64,000 bases of DNA from Massilia sp. YIM B02443. Lineage in GTDB: Bacteria > Pseudomonadota > Gammaproteobacteria > Burkholderiales > Burkholderiaceae_D. Location: positions 166,096-230,095 of the forward strand of contig NZ_JASNRA010000004.1 of the NCBI RefSeq assembly GCF_030411955.1, read 5' to 3'. The translations under genes and the position numbers were made by a program. Shown piece after piece: positions 895-15,856 of the stretch (position 1 is the stretch's first letter; each line of letters opens with the position of its first letter). Below the pieces are notes generated by a model. The model was not told the origin of the DNA. It did not search any database and worked only from the letters and a program-made list of their open reading frames with translations.

Positions 895-937
895 ATCATA
901 TCCAGCCAGCCTGATTTGTCTCATTGACCATGGTCAA
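895..937. promoter_or_regulatory. Divergent oxc / crp-type regulator promoter with FNR-like palindrome
   Basis: A perfect 14-bp palindrome TTGACCATGGTCAA (924-937) fits the FNR-type half-site arrangement TTGA-N6-TCAA. On the minus strand a -10 hexamer TATGAT (900-895) lies 30.5 bp from the palindrome centre. That places the site at about -42 from the inferred oxc start, the class II activator position. On the plus strand the same bases TTGACC (924-929) form a -35 with a 17-bp spacer to CATGAT (947-952). Binding would therefore cover the regulator's own promoter while activating oxc. The transcription starts are inferred. Confidence 0.65.
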
Positions 938-968
938 TTTTGGCCGCATGATGAGAGAATCTCGCTAA

Positions 969-2840: not shown

Positions 2841-3608
2841 CTACTCGAACCGATTGACGAGTCTCCCGATGCCGTCGATCTCGACCTCGACCGTGCTACC
2901 CGGCCGCATCGAGCCGACGCCGACCGAGGTGCCGCACAGCAGGATGTCGCCCGCCTCCAATGTCATGTCCTGGGAAATCTTGCTGACCAGTTCCGCCACC
3001 GAAAACACCATGTCGTTGACCGGATAGTCCTGGCGTACTTCACCGTTCAGGATGGTGCGCACGACCAGCATCGCCGGATTCAGGCCGGTGGCGATCACCG
3101 GGCCGAACGGGCAAAAGGTATCGAAGCCCTTGGCGCGCACCCATTGCGGAAAGGTCGGATCGCGCCCGATGATCTCGCCCACGGTGACGTCGTTGGCGCA
3201 GGTATAGCCGAACACGTAATGCTGCGCCTCCTCGACCGCGACGGCGCTGCAGCGGCGCCCGATCACGATCCCCAGCTCGCCCTCGAACGCCACCTTGCCG
3301 TCGCACAGCGGCTTGCGGATGGTGCCGCCCGGGGACAGGTAGGAAGTCGACGGCTTCATCAGGTACAGCGGCTCGGCCGGCGGGGCCAGGCCCAGCTTCT
3401 GGCCAAGCGCGTGAAAGTTGTTCCACATCGCCAGTACCTTGCCCGGCACGACCGGCGTGAGCACCTCGACCTCGGCCAGGTTGATCGCCAGGTCGGTGCG
3501 GCTCGGGCTGTCGAGCATGTCGCCCTTGAAGATCCGGATCTTGTCGCCCTCGAGGGTGCCGAAGCGCACGGTGTCGAGGTGTTGAAAGCGTATCCAGTGT
3601 CGGATCAT
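2841..3608 (-). CDS. Fumarylacetoacetate hydrolase (FAH) family protein
   Basis: 255 residues, about the size of single-domain FAH-fold hydrolases and decarboxylases that act on 2-oxo acids with a divalent metal. Metal ligands are visible: E109 and E111 in FEGELG and D140 in CANDVT. The C-terminal part holds the usual GDILLCGTSVG segment. It is the first gene of a two-gene unit with the PanE-like reductase, so the two probably act in one pathway. The family includes acylpyruvases and oxaloacetate decarboxylases; the substrate cannot be read from sequence. A degenerate copy of the oxalate-type operator lies about 100 bp upstream. Confidence 0.8.
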   Translation of the reverse strand: MIRHWIRFQHLDTVRFGTLEGDKIRIFKGDMLDSPSRTDLAINLAEVEVLTPVVPGKVLAMWNNFHALGQKLGLAPPAEPLYLMKPSTSYLSPGGTIRKPLCDGKVAFEGELGIVIGRRCSAVAVEEAQHYVFGYTCANDVTVGEIIGRDPTFPQWVRAKGFDTFCPFGPVIATGLNPAMLVVRTILNGEVRQDYPVNDMVFSVAELVSKISQDMTLEAGDILLCGTSVGVGSMRPGSTVEVEIDGIGRLVNRFE

Positions 3609-3677: not shown

Positions 3678-3719
3678 ATTGTCGAAGAACGCCTCCGGCA
3701 TATCCTTGACCACGGTTAA
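3678..3719 (-). promoter_or_regulatory. Possible third FNR-like box upstream of the FAH/PanE-like operon
   Basis: Read on the minus strand, TTAACCGTGGTCAA (3719-3706) differs at one base from the TTGAC-N4-GTCAA palindrome at oxc. A weak -10, GACAAT (3683-3678), starts 29.5 bp from its centre, again near the class II position. The TGAGA flank shared by the oxc and frc boxes is absent, so this is a weaker candidate. Confidence 0.35.
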
Positions 3720-6832: not shown

Positions 6833-7765
6833 TCAGTGCCGCATCAGCGCCCGCACATGCGCTGCGCAGCCGCCGGCCAGCCCCTCGCCGCTGTAGCCGC
6901 CTTCCAGGATCGACACGATGCGGCCCTGGCACAGGTCGTCGGCGATCGCCATCACCTCGCGCGTGATCCAGGCGAAGTCCTCGTCCTCCAGGTTCATGTG
7001 GGCCAGGGGATCGAGCCGGTGCGCGTCGAACCCGGCCGACACGATGATCAGCTGGGGCATAAAACGCCGCAATGCCGGCAGCAACGTGGCGGCCACGCGC
7101 GCGCGGAACAGCGCGCTGCCGCAGCCGGGCGGCAACGGCAGGTTGACGATATTGCCGCTGGCGCCGGTCTCGCCGGCCGCGCCGGTGCCCGGATACAGCG
7201 GCGACTGGTGGCTGGAACCGAAGAACAGCTCGGGACGGTGGTAGAACGCGGCTTGCGTGCCATTGCCGTGGTGGACGTCGAAGTCGATCACGGCAACCCG
7301 CTGCAGGCCGTGCGTTCGAAGCGCATGGACGGCGGCGATGGCGGCCTGGTTGAAGATGCAGAATCCCATCGCCGCGTCCGGCTCGGCATGATGGCCGCAA
7401 GGCCGGGTGGCGCAGAACACGTTGGCGGCCTCGCCCGCCAGCACCGCATCGACGCCGGCACAGGCGGCGCCGACGCAGCGCATCACCGCCTCCCAGCTGC
7501 CGGGCGACATCAGGGTGTCGCCGCCGTCGAGCGCTACAAGGCCGCTGCTGGGCGCCGCGGCGGCGATCGCGTCGACATACTCGGCGCGGTGCACCAGCAA
7601 CACCTGCTCGCGCATGCCGGCCGGCGCCTGGCGCCAGGCCAGGTCTTCGAATTCCGGCTGGCGCAGCGCCTCCATCACCACCTGCAGGCGCTGCGGCGAC
7701 TCCGGATGGCCGGTGCCGGGAATATGCGCCAGGCAGGCCTCATGATGAAACACCCAGGTAGACAT
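6833..7765 (-). CDS. Histone deacetylase-fold protein, last gene of the gcl operon
   Basis: 310 residues, arginase/HDAC fold. Catalytic features are visible: the general-base pair H125-H126, the zinc/active-site motif DFDVHHGNG (161-169) and SAGFDAH near 242-248. The usual RPPGHHA reads RPCGHHA here, placing cysteine 123 beside the catalytic histidines. Bacterial members deacetylate acetylated amines such as polyamines, or acetoin-related substrates. It begins 21 nt after glxR with ribosome site GGGGGA, so it is probably co-transcribed with gcl-hyi-glxR. Its role in glyoxylate metabolism is unclear. A paralog lies at 29250-30182. Confidence 0.85.
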   Translation of the reverse strand: MSTWVFHHEACLAHIPGTGHPESPQRLQVVMEALRQPEFEDLAWRQAPAGMREQVLLVHRAEYVDAIAAAAPSSGLVALDGGDTLMSPGSWEAVMRCVGAACAGVDAVLAGEAANVFCATRPCGHHAEPDAAMGFCIFNQAAIAAVHALRTHGLQRVAVIDFDVHHGNGTQAAFYHRPELFFGSSHQSPLYPGTGAAGETGASGNIVNLPLPPGCGSALFRARVAATLLPALRRFMPQLIIVSAGFDAHRLDPLAHMNLEDEDFAWITREVMAIADDLCQGRIVSILEGGYSGEGLAGGCAAHVRALMRH

Positions 7766-12372: not shown

Positions 12373-13620
12373 CTAGATGACCCGCTCTTCGCGCAGCAGC
12401 GCGATCTGCTCGCGCGAGTAGCCCAGGTCGGCCAGCACTTCATCGGTGTGCTCGCCCAGCAGCGGCGAGCGGCGCACCTCGGTCGGGCTGTCGGACAGCT
12501 TGATCGGGTTGCCCACGCTGAGATACGGCCCGCGCTCGGGATGATCGACTTCGACGATGGTGCCGGTGGCGCGCAGCGACGGCTCCTCGGCGATTTCCTT
12601 CATCGACAGGATCGGACCGCACGGGATGTCGTATTTGTTCAGGATATCCATCGCCTCGAACTTGGTCAGCGTGGTGCTCCATTCCTCGACCGTGGCGAAG
12701 ATCGACATCAGGCGCGGCAGGCGCGCCTTCGGCGTTGCATACTCCGGGTCGGTAATCCACTCCTCGCGCCCGATCAGCTTGCAGACCGACGGCCATACCT
12801 GGGCCTGGGCGATGAAGTAGATATAGGCGTTGGGATCATTCTCCCAGCCCTTGCACTTGAGGATCCAGCCGGGTTGGCCGCCGCCGAAAGCATTGCCGGC
12901 GCGGGGCACGGATTCGCCGAACTGGCCGCCCGCGAACTGCGGATATTCTTCCATCACGCCATTGCGCTCGAGCCGCTGCTGGTCGCGCAGCTTGACCCGG
13001 CACAGGTTCAGCACGGCGTCCTGCATCGAGGTCAGCACCTTCTGGCCGCGCCCCGTGGTGTTGCGCTGGTACAGGGCGGTGACGATGCCCAGCGCCAGGT
13101 GCAGGCCGCTGCCGCTGTCGCCGATCTGGGCCCCGCTGACCAGCGGCGGGCCATCGTCGAAGCCGGTGGTGGCGGCCGCGCCGCCGGTGCACTGGGCCAC
13201 GTTTTCATACACCTTGCAGTGCTCGTAGGGGCCGGGGCCGAAGCCCTTGACCGAGGCCACGATCATGCGCGGATTGAGTTCCTGGATCCGTTCCCAGCTG
13301 AAGCCCATGCGGTCCAACGCGCCGGGTGCGAAATTTTCCACCAGCACGTCGCATTGCTTGATCAGGGTCTCCAGCACTTCCTTGCCGGCCGGCCGCTTGG
13401 CGTCGAGCGTCATCGAGCGCTTGTTATGGTTGAGCATGGTGAAGTACAGGCTGTCCACGCCGGCGATGTCGCGCAGCTGGCCGCGCGTCGCATCGCCCTC
13501 GCCGGCGCGCTCGACCTTGATGACGTCGGCGCCGAACCAGGCCAATAGCTGGGTACAGGTGGGTCCGGACTGGACATGGGTGAAATCGAGAATGCGAACG
13601 CCTTCCAACGCCTTGCCCAT
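12373..13620 (-). CDS. frc: Formyl-CoA:oxalate CoA-transferase
   Basis: 415 residues, class III CoA-transferase. It moves CoA from formyl-CoA to oxalate, giving oxalyl-CoA for Oxc. Q17 (in HVQSGP) and catalytic D168 (QIGDSGSG, equal to D169 of characterised Frc) are present, and a glycine loop GGGQPG lies near 258. Position 48 is Gln, as in the E. coli enzyme. The start at 13620 (MGKALEGV) has GGAGGA upstream; a longer frame from 13686 is unlikely. It is separated from oxlT by a terminator, so it has its own promoter, which carries the FNR-like box. Confidence 0.95.
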
Positions 13621-13719: not shown

Positions 13720-13762
13720 ATCATAGCGGCGTGGGTCCGGCGCTCTCAATGACCGAAGTCAA
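13720..13762 (-). promoter_or_regulatory. frc promoter with FNR-like box
   Basis: Read on the minus strand, TTGACTTCGGTCAT (13762-13749) is followed by TGAGA, exactly as at oxc. A -10 TATGAT (13725-13720) begins 30.5 bp from the box centre, the same distance as at oxc. The inferred start at about 13713 leaves a 93-nt leader to frc. The shared pattern is TTGACNNNNGTCAWTGAGA. Confidence 0.6.
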
Positions 13763-13858: not shown

Positions 13859-15184
13859 TCACGCAGGCAGCGCACCTCCCTGGGCCACCGCGCTTTCTTT
13901 CGCGTACAGGCTCTTCGAGTAGGTGACGTGATTGCGCAGCACGGGCCGCAGCACCGTGATCGCCAGCAGCGCCGCGGTCAGGTCCATGATGGCGACGGTG
14001 TAGAGGACGGTCGACCAGGTGCCGGTCGCCTCCATCATCAGGTTGCCGACCGGGACGAACAGCGCGCCGATCCCCTTCGCGGTGTACAGCACGCCGTAGA
14101 TCTTGCCGATGTGCCTGGTACCGAAGGCGTCGCCGGCCAGGGCCGAGAACAGCGAGTACACTTCGCCCCACGCCAGGAACACGACGCCGGACAGGATCAG
14201 GAAGGCATACGGATTGCTGCCGAAGTAGCCGAGCGCGATGATGCCGCAGCCTTCCAGCGTGAAGGCGATGACCATGGTCTTCTCGCGCCCGATGTGGTCC
14301 GATATCCAGCCGAACAGCGGTCGCGAGATGCCGTTCATGATACGGTCGAGCATCAGGGCCAGCGGCAGGGCCGCCATCACGAAGAAGTGCAGGTCGACCT
14401 GGAATTCCTTCACGCCCAGATCCTTGGCGATCACGCCCAGCTGCGCCACCGCCATCATGCCGCCGGTGACCACCAGCACGAACATCACCAGCATCAGCCA
14501 GAACAGCTTGGTGCTCAGCGCTTCCTTGAGAGTGTAGTCGTGCGTGGTCTGCATCAGCTTGCTCGACTTCCTGACCTCGCTCGAACCCGGCGAGCGCAGG
14601 AACCAGGCGGCGACAAAGGCGAGCGAGCCCTGCAGGATGCCGAAGAACAGGAAGGTTTGCTGGAAGCCCGACGACTCGATCATGGCCGCGATCGGCAGGA
14701 TGGTCGCGGCCGAACCGGCGCCATAACCACCGGCCGTGAGGCCGACGGCCAGGCCGCGGCGATCCGGGAACCACTTGATCGCGTTGTTGATGCAGGTGGC
14801 GTAGATCGAGCCGACGCCGATGCCGCCGACGGCCGCGCCGACATAGAAGCCGGCCAGCGTGGTGGCCTGCGAATTGATGATCCAGGCCAGGCCGATGAAG
14901 ACTGCGCCGAAGGCGACCATCATGCGCGGGCCGAACTTGTCGATGAAGTAGCCTTCGAGCGGTGCGAGCCAGGTCTGGACGATGACGAACAGCGTGAAGG
15001 CGACCTGGATGCTGGCGCGCGACCAGCCATAGGTTTCCTCGATCTCGGGCACGAACAAGGTCCACGCATACTGGATATTCGCGGTGGCGATCATGCAGAT
15101 GACGCCGACGGCAAGCTGTATCCAGCGTGTGCTGTCGGAGACCGGTTGAGGTGGGCGAAGCGCCGCTGCCGATGAAGTAGTCAT
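13859..15184 (-). CDS. oxlT: Oxalate/formate antiporter, MFS family
   Basis: 441 residues with about 12 membrane segments. It exchanges external oxalate for internal formate. The two functional basic residues of OxlT have counterparts: R288 in NGISRP (R272) and K370 in YTAKG (K355). A DKFGPR loop follows helix 2 in the first half. Ribosome site AGGGGAG lies 6 nt before the ATG. It is monocistronic by the terminator downstream. Together with frc and oxc it gives a complete oxalate-to-formate system. Confidence 0.93.
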   Translation of the reverse strand: MTTSSAAALRPPQPVSDSTRWIQLAVGVICMIATANIQYAWTLFVPEIEETYGWSRASIQVAFTLFVIVQTWLAPLEGYFIDKFGPRMMVAFGAVFIGLAWIINSQATTLAGFYVGAAVGGIGVGSIYATCINNAIKWFPDRRGLAVGLTAGGYGAGSAATILPIAAMIESSGFQQTFLFFGILQGSLAFVAAWFLRSPGSSEVRKSSKLMQTTHDYTLKEALSTKLFWLMLVMFVLVVTGGMMAVAQLGVIAKDLGVKEFQVDLHFFVMAALPLALMLDRIMNGISRPLFGWISDHIGREKTMVIAFTLEGCGIIALGYFGSNPYAFLILSGVVFLAWGEVYSLFSALAGDAFGTRHIGKIYGVLYTAKGIGALFVPVGNLMMEATGTWSTVLYTVAIMDLTAALLAITVLRPVLRNHVTYSKSLYAKESAVAQGGALPA

Positions 15185-15856
15185 TTGGCGCTCCCCTGAT
15201 CGGTGTGGTCTCTTCCTTCGGAATATGCTGACGGATATGCGGGTGGCTGTGCCCCCGGCTTGGCTATGGTTTCCAGCATTTCATGTCTCCATTATTATGG
15301 TGTGATGGTCATGCTTCACGTCGAGCCTCGGTCTTTTTCCCTGGACTCGCGTTCCAACCCCTACGCCGTTTTTCACTACATTTCTCACTACACGGTTAAA
15401 GCAGCAGTACCGAACGCAGCGTCAGGATGCTGATGGCGGCAGGATTGCCCGCCCGGCGTAACAGCCTTTGACGACGGCGTTCTCTTGATCGTGAATGTCC
15501 GCTGTTGCCGCTCTCCTCATATCGCAAGTTAATGTCTTCGACGACCGCAAACTCCAATTGCGTTCCCCCCTTTCACCCCTGGCGCCGGAGTTGGCGATGC
15601 CGCATCGCGCGGTTTGGAAAACGGTGAAAGTGAGGTGATGTTGCTGGAGCCGATTTTGAGAATCATTGACCGCGGTTATGTTTCAACTATTTTTTTCGGT
15701 CGCTGGCCGGCGGCTTTGACGCGGCAAACGCCAGCCGCGCTGACGCGAAAGCGCCATGCCTATGCAGGCTGGTTCTTGTAGCCGAGGATTTCGCGCGAAC
15801 GCACGATGCGACGACATGCTGGCGCGGGTGCTGCAGCCGGGTAAGCGGCGAATGGA
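15185..15856. other. Gene-poor interval upstream of oxlT
   Basis: About 670 bp with lower GC than its surroundings. Open frames here (for example 15203-15433 on the plus strand) have neither ribosome sites nor protein-like composition. It must hold the oxlT promoter, but I see no good copy of the oxc/frc box at the right place. A one-mismatch box-like sequence at 15666-15679 is too far away. Confidence 0.6.

Follow-up and report, generated by a model that had tools for sequence, protein, structure and literature searches.

Judged from comparative sequence analysis, the palindrome TTGACCATGGTCAA, located between the oxalyl-CoA decarboxylase gene oxc and a divergent Crp/Fnr-family gene of Massilia sp. 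YIM B02443, very probably serves as the binding site of a regulator by which many soil bacteria turn on a group of oxalate genes. A site of this kind also precedes oxc of the gut bacterium Oxalobacter formigenes. The best explanation as a whole, to which we assign a probability of roughly 0.78, is that the adjacent Crp/Fnr protein uses the palindrome as its operator, activates an oxalate regulon from a class II position and, in close relatives of this species, occludes its own promoter. Oxalate breakdown matters for soil carbon and, via Oxalobacter formigenes, for human kidney stones. The outcome of the analysis is one candidate regulator together with its operator, promoter geometry and target list.

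The window, that is, the whole stretch of DNA analysed, consists of 64,000 nt of contig NZ_JASNRA010000004.1 (positions 166,096-230,095, forward strand), and its features are listed in Table 1. By the similarities of its genes, the neighbourhood is an oxalate and glyoxylate cluster. The gene frc1 lies to the left of the window, on the same strand as oxc and 90 bp past it (seen in L094), and is followed by formate dehydrogenase-like genes, recognized by eye, on the opposite strand. Rightward, the genes are ordered panE-like, FAH, LysR-type, histone-deacetylase-like, glxR-, hyi- and gcl-type, a second LysR-type, frc2 and oxlT-like; in this row the gcl, frc2 and oxlT labels were given by family scan and the others by eye. 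The histone-deacetylase-like gene (6833-7765, labelled by eye) stands directly behind gcl-hyi-glxR, and a similar gene occurs near a box in L321. A GC-rich inverted repeat (gcccccgcgaaggcgggggtcc ... gggcccccgccttcgcgggggc, 1628-1716) downstream of the regulator resembles a terminator or a repeat element. Near frc-oxc of Cupriavidus necator, the panE2-like ApbA2 is reported to support growth on oxalate (PMC7486775), and by that analogy the panE-like gene of the window is a candidate oxalyl-CoA reductase.

Table 1. Features of the analysed window (positions count from its first nucleotide)
Feature	Position	Strand	Basis or remark
oxc, oxalyl-CoA decarboxylase, 5' part (runs off the window)	2-838	minus	PRK09259/TIGR03254; whole gene over cut-off
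oxc promoter -10, TATGAT (ATCATA on plus)	895-900	minus	23 nt from the palindrome
Operator TTGACCATGGTCAA	924-937	.	perfect 14-bp palindrome, centre 930.5; conserved in regulator loci
T-tract (A-tract on the oxc strand)	938-941	.	upstream flank of the putatively activated promoter; column conservation
Candidate regulator -10, CATGAT	947-952	plus	N17 from TTGACC 924-929
Crp/Fnr-family regulator	981-1589 (ORF from 969)	plus	family and PDB searches, AlphaFold2 model, Foldseek
Predicted recognition helix, residues 194-202 (E195, S198, R199)	1548-1574	plus	model
panE/apbA-like reductase, candidate oxalyl-CoA reductase	1793-2809	minus	Pfam ApbA and NCBIfam; role by analogy
FAH-family hydrolase, first of the FAH-panE pair	2841-3608	minus	matches below curated cut-offs
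FAH-panE promoter -10-like GACAAT	3678-3683	minus	22 nt from its box
Second operator TTGACCACGGTTAA	3706-3719	.	before FAH-panE; box search and relatives
frc2, formyl-CoA transferase	12373-13620	minus	TIGR03253 over cut-off
frc2 -10, TATGAT	13720-13725	minus	23 nt from its box
Third operator ATGACCGAAGTCAA	13749-13762	.	second-best box-N23-TATNAT match genome-wide, 1 mismatch
Oxalate/formate antiporter (oxlT-like)	13859-15184	minus	TIGR04259 over cut-off
Degenerate box TTGACCGCGGTTAT, function doubtful	15666-15679	.	about 480 bp upstream of the oxlT-like gene

An earlier note on this DNA had placed the palindrome at about -42 of a minus-strand TATGAT promoter for oxc, had read its first six bases as the -35 of a TTGACC-N17-CATGAT promoter toward the divergent Crp/Fnr gene, and had pointed to an E-xx-S-R motif in the regulator. 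All three elements are found in place: with the oxc start inferred at 888 the palindrome is centred at -42.5, TTGACC and CATGAT are separated by 17 bases on the plus strand, and the protein reads SPETLSRLK. The oxc gene starts at 838 (minus) and the regulator at ATG 981 or ATG 969 (plus). In the 5.71 Mb genome this exact palindrome is unique. Symmetry alone is weak evidence, because perfect 14-bp palindromes are common in the window (15, where 50 mononucleotide shuffles gave 7.4 on average). A chance palindrome is nevertheless ruled out: at 78 of 79 regulator loci TTGA-N6-TCAA is retained at a distance of less than 130 bp before the gene; at the single miss (L090) the contig begins inside the regulator gene.

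These 79 loci include the own site twice. Regulator homologs were found in 8 of 62 genomes of the genus, own included, at E below 1e-100, and in 64 of 245 genomes of the family sample at E<=1e-20. Massilia, Pseudoduganella, Ramlibacter, Polaromonas and relatives contributed a further 41 named loci, some of them from genomes already in the other samples. After removal of identical or short upstream stretches, 69 sequences with an effective number of 53 were retained. The half-site bases TTGA/TCAA are mostly conserved at about 0.99 in these loci, which were selected for TTGA-N6-TCAA, and the two central bases are variable; column conservation gives the consensus TTGACC..GGTCAA. The T-tract corresponds to columns 14-17 (conservation 0.77-0.99), and an A-rich flank also precedes boxes whose promoters have no regulator gene beside them. 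Among 18 further regulator upstream regions of the family, 17 (L243-L259) carry a box that deviates from TTGACNNNNGTCAA at 1 position at most. The rule that a regulator always comes with a box fails once, in G084 (L242): this genome lacks oxc, and the 688 bp before its regulator hold no box (best match, 4 mismatches). In total, 48 of the 64 regulator genomes of the family were inspected at the regulator, and 47 have the box. Six Ramlibacter-type loci (L070, L073, L075, L084, L086, L092) each have a second TTGACTGCGGTCAA box at about +4.8 kb from the regulator.

Residues of the regulator are numbered on the 206-aa protein (ORF from ATG 969); translation more likely starts at ATG 981 (202 aa), because ATG 969 is ACG in the nearest species (L006-L009). 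The protein matches PF00027 with an E-value of 4.5e-6 and 27.0 bits, just below the cut-off of 27.5, and no Pfam HTH family was matched at 0.001. Its AlphaFold2 model (mean pLDDT 76.5) has helices at 134-161, 183-189 and 194-202, and the best Foldseek matches of the model are Crp/Fnr proteins. Since the VIA alignment covered mainly residues 3-158, so that the HTH was barely compared, Foldseek and VIA speak for a Crp/Fnr-type fold only. Search and model combined yield the cNMP-type beta-roll, long dimer helix and C-terminal HTH by which Crp/Fnr proteins are recognized. E195, S198 and R199 are invariant in 38/38 and 22/22 aligned sequences, and at the sequence level the pair of regulator and box has the features of an FNR-type reader, namely the E-xx-S-R helix and TTGA half-sites. 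The chain ends 4 residues past the modelled recognition helix, where a wing would follow. There is no invariant Cys column in the 38- or the 22-row alignment (the best is C112, with 37/38 and 10/22), and the lack of a conserved Cys set argues that the regulator is not an Fe-S FNR. No cAMP phosphate-binding cassette was recognizable by eye in residues 80-110. A plasmid search returned one distant match, from Chryseobacterium (29.8% identity). Linkage, co-occurrence and the invariant E/S/R residues support the regulator as the probable reader of the box.

The distance between box and promoter is fixed. Counted on the strand of oxc, the distance from the box to the best or tied -10 is 23 nt in 50 sequences and 22 nt in 18, altogether 68/69; near the exception, L046 (genome G114), there is an frc with its own box-N23-TATGAT (L175). 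As judged by eye, L031, L033 and L034 have frc as the gene divergent from the regulator, and L043 and L044 have a TPP enzyme there, with box and spacing retained. The same 22/23-nt spacing recurs at promoters without an adjacent regulator gene. A box centred about 41-43 bp upstream of the start, at a constant distance from the -10, is the arrangement of a class II activator site, and with inferred starts these promoters conform to it. The earlier proposal that the box-bound regulator activates oxc from this position is strongly supported by the comparison, and we infer class II activation.

A repressor would act differently: occupancy of the box would block the -35 region of oxc and of the regulator's own gene until released by an oxalate-derived ligand. 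The box does cover the -35 of the regulator and adjoin that of oxc, where ATGAGA at spacer 18 forms a weak -35, and hexamers with 2 mismatches to a -35 occur on the oxc strand in 13/35 promoters of close relatives and in 3/3 and 11/31 others, so that a basal oxc promoter is possible. Repression is nonetheless improbable, given that a box-to--10 spacing of 22-23 nt at many promoters is expected of class II activators rather than repressors, and that 20 of 31 promoters of the distant group have no -35 better than 3 mismatches.

The reading as an activator site is extended by the other promoters that carry the box. By sequence comparison the box belongs to a regulon that includes oxc, frc2 and FAH-panE and, in relatives, non-adjacent oxc, frc, oxlT-type and other genes. 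At least two of its further promoters, those of frc2 and FAH-panE, lie within the window and had been missed by the earlier note. In the whole genome, TTGACNNNNGTCAA-N23-TATNAT has one match with 0 mismatches (oxc), one with 1 (frc2), one with 2 and 27 with 3; the reversed-pattern control has 11 matches in all. Sites of the FAH-panE type (the window and L053-L061) have CACAAT or GACAAT at 22 nt in 10/10 cases, and TTGACCNNGGTTAA with CACAAT at 22 nt stands before FAH in L053, L054 and L061 and before oxlT in L055-L060. No hexamer within 2 mismatches of TATAAT was found 16-29 nt from TTGACCGCGGTTAT. Matches to TTGAGCATGGTGAA (13430 in the window, and C34:164946 to its left) were dropped as sites since they are inside two frc coding sequences. 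Other exact TTGACNNNNGTCAA boxes of the own genome are located at C1:174403, C6:51170 and C23:233204, the last of which has no -10-like hexamer at 22-24 nt.

Composite sites accompany the regulator across genomes. Within the genus, a 0-mismatch composite occurs in 8/8 regulator genomes versus 1/54 others (p=2.7e-9); since every regulator comes with its own box, this test is circular in part. The regulator-less member with such a site is G006, where it precedes a NirK-like gene (labelled by eye; site L191). In the family sample, among the matches listed, 26 of 27 genomes with a 0-mismatch site have the regulator. A further 29 site regions were hand-picked from longer listings, favouring sites near TTGACCNNGGTCAA in regulator genomes; L188-L190 are regulator-linked, and L191 was picked as the 0-mismatch site of the regulator-less genus member. 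The gene behind the site is frc in 10 cases, oxc in 9, a TPP enzyme in 6, an FDH-type subunit in 1, an MFS antiporter in 1 and an unrelated gene in 2, as labelled by eye from translations with one TPP enzyme family-scanned. The TPP enzyme behind the operator in L181, L173, L317 and similar regions has about 588 aa, is below every curated family cut-off shown, and has 2-hydroxyacyl-CoA lyases as its nearest structures; it possibly catalyses a further CoA-dependent step of oxalate or glyoxylate metabolism. FAH-family and TPP-enzyme genes are in this way tied to the oxalate pathway by a common operator.

The regulator is present in 50 of 54 oxc genomes (p=2.6e-34, relatedness ignored). Conversely, TIGR03254 has no match at E<=1e-100 in 14 of the 64 genomes with the regulator, and at least 5 of these (G063, G088, G141, G173, G206) have the TPP enzyme. 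The converse rule, that a box implies a regulator, fails in four genomes of the genus Oxalobacter (G067, G180, G192 and G211; 99, 99, 91 and 87 percent complete), where the oxc box is present and no regulator homolog was found at E<=1, nor with a wider profile at E<=10. A reader too divergent for detection, assembly loss or relic boxes may each explain these cases, and the claim that this regulator alone reads the box is limited by them. In G246, which has no regulator match, a TPP enzyme is preceded by a 1-mismatch site, and in G197 such a site lies beside a diverged homolog (31% identical) that is interrupted by a stop codon.

Another Crp/Fnr protein, of the FNR/DNR type, might instead read the box, with the oxalate genes following oxygen or NO and the neighbouring regulator acting elsewhere. 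The box type resembles FNR/DNR boxes, the own genome has 8 PF00027 matches (regulator included), a similar site precedes the NirK-like gene of G006, and boxes persist in the four regulator-less genomes. In three of those four (G180, G192, G211) PF00027 has no match at E<=0.01, and in G067 it has one; an ordinary FNR is therefore no explanation there either. Composite sites moreover track this particular regulator, and the consensus is TTGACC..GGTCAA, not the TTGAT....ATCAA of FNR boxes. We consider a foreign reader of this kind very unlikely and the neighbouring protein the probable one.

Oxalobacter-type genomes provide promoters that are separated from the regulator. The OXC of G132 aligns with the oxalyl-CoA decarboxylase 2c31 over all 568 residues with no visible difference; 2c31 we take to be the O. 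formigenes enzyme, and hence G132 presumably O. formigenes. Its oxc, about 235 kb away from the regulator, is preceded by four boxes at exact 24-bp steps (L227), two with 1 mismatch, the last one 23 nt from CATACT. The same four-box array, with 1 mismatch in one of the four, precedes oxc of a relative, G109 (L228). In G132, box-N23-TATGAT is also found before a TPP-enzyme gene that is followed by an frc-like gene. Each of the 16 regions upstream of oxc in Oxalobacter-type genera and G079 (L223-L238) contains a box that has 1 mismatch at most, together with CATACT or CATAAT at a distance of 23 nt (13 regions) or 22 nt (3 regions); oxc is not adjacent to the existing regulator in 12 of them, and no regulator was found in the other 4 (L223-L226). 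L239 was too short to judge, and L240 and L241 are regulator-linked and have boxes. A second box lies 72-81 bp farther upstream of oxc in L224, L225, L235 and L237. At the Oxalobacter-type regulator loci (L243-L254), 10 of 12 have, between the regulator and the divergent gene, a second box 38-40 bp nearer to the regulator, possibly a separate autoregulatory site.

The earlier note had further held that the palindrome represses its own regulator, and this part is partly supported, in the branch of the window's species only. With a hexamer of at most 2 mismatches to TATAAT at N17 from the TTGACC half-site as the measure, the -10 is kept in 33/35 close-relative whole-genome sequences; the counts are 0/3 in further Massilia/Pseudoduganella contigs, 4/17 in further own-family loci (0/12 in the Oxalobacter-type branch L243-L254) and 1/31 in mostly comamonadaceal loci. 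By a looser measure, N17 as the best or tied offset, they are 34/35, 2/3 and 5/31. That CATGAT is simply the -10 of the regulator is weakened by the sites unlinked to a regulator gene and by its absence from Oxalobacter-type loci. Boxes that have no regulator gene beside them are likewise preceded by the T-tract and by the AT of CATGAT, and CATGAT itself stands at N17 in 3/20 unlinked sites. It is a real possibility, somewhat short of even, that CATGAT serves the target promoter as an upstream element, such as a contact for the alpha-CTD, and that the regulator is transcribed from elsewhere with no autorepression through the box; this bears only on the autorepression half of the explanation. 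The lack of an N17 hexamer within 2 mismatches in 30 of 31 comamonadaceal-type loci and in 13 of the 17 own-family loci added later (among these 13, the whole Oxalobacter-type set of 12) points the same way. Against it, the hexamer occurs at 5/20 unlinked target sites, compared with 33/35 in close relatives (p=1.4e-7) and 37/55 in all own-family loci (p=0.0015), relatedness being ignored in both tests. That the bound regulator occludes the promoter of its own gene is plausible for the branch to which the window's species belongs; outside that branch it is unsupported.

In the mechanism that we propose, TTGACCATGGTCAA would be the operator of the neighbouring Crp/Fnr-family protein, whose dimer would read TTGACCNNGGTCAA via E195, S198 and R199 of the recognition helix. 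Bound with its centre near -42, the dimer would recruit RNA polymerase as a class II activator at oxc(-frc), frc2 and FAH-panE, and in relatives also at oxlT and related genes. In close relatives, where the box covers the -35 of the regulator's promoter, the bound protein would limit its own synthesis. The inducing signal may be derived from oxalate. We tentatively go further, at slightly less than even odds, and suggest that oxalate catabolism across Oxalobacteraceae and Comamonadaceae, O. formigenes included, is under the master control of a dedicated, wing-less Crp/Fnr activator, which would sense oxalate or a CoA ester derived from it. In O. formigenes, four operators at 24-bp steps would form a steep cooperative oxc switch.

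The pair of regulator and operator appears to be new within a kind of Crp/Fnr system that is already known, and its interest lies in its breadth and in the oxc promoter of O. formigenes. A Crp/Fnr-type regulator of oxc or frc was not named in the open-access literature searched, and text searches of PMC3886118, PMC12927642 and PMC8062136 showed no relevant regulator, promoter or Crp-type passage. The C. necator frc-oxc-apbA2 locus (PMC7486775) has the same enzymes with a panE2-like gene close to frc-oxc; it differs in that the main text has 'Crp' 0 times and 'regulator' once.

Among known structures, the best PDB sequence match of the regulator is 3dn7 (E 3.6e-9), a cyclic nucleotide-binding regulatory protein of Cytophaga hutchinsonii. 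Its aligned chain is likewise short after the HTH (190 of 194), although it belongs to another phylum and is 13-16% identical across the Foldseek-aligned part. CRP shares the overall fold and the class II geometry; its half-sites are TGTGA, in contrast to the TTGA half-sites here, and its cAMP phosphate-binding cassette is not recognizable by eye in the regulator. The closest likeness in fold, E-xx-S-R helix, box type and box position is with the FNR/DNR/FixK branch, whose activators use TTGA-N6-TCAA boxes in class II positions near -41.5. From that branch the present system is distinguished by its TTGACC/GGTCAA core, the lack of a conserved Cys set, its oxalate-gene targets and the end of the chain after the recognition helix.
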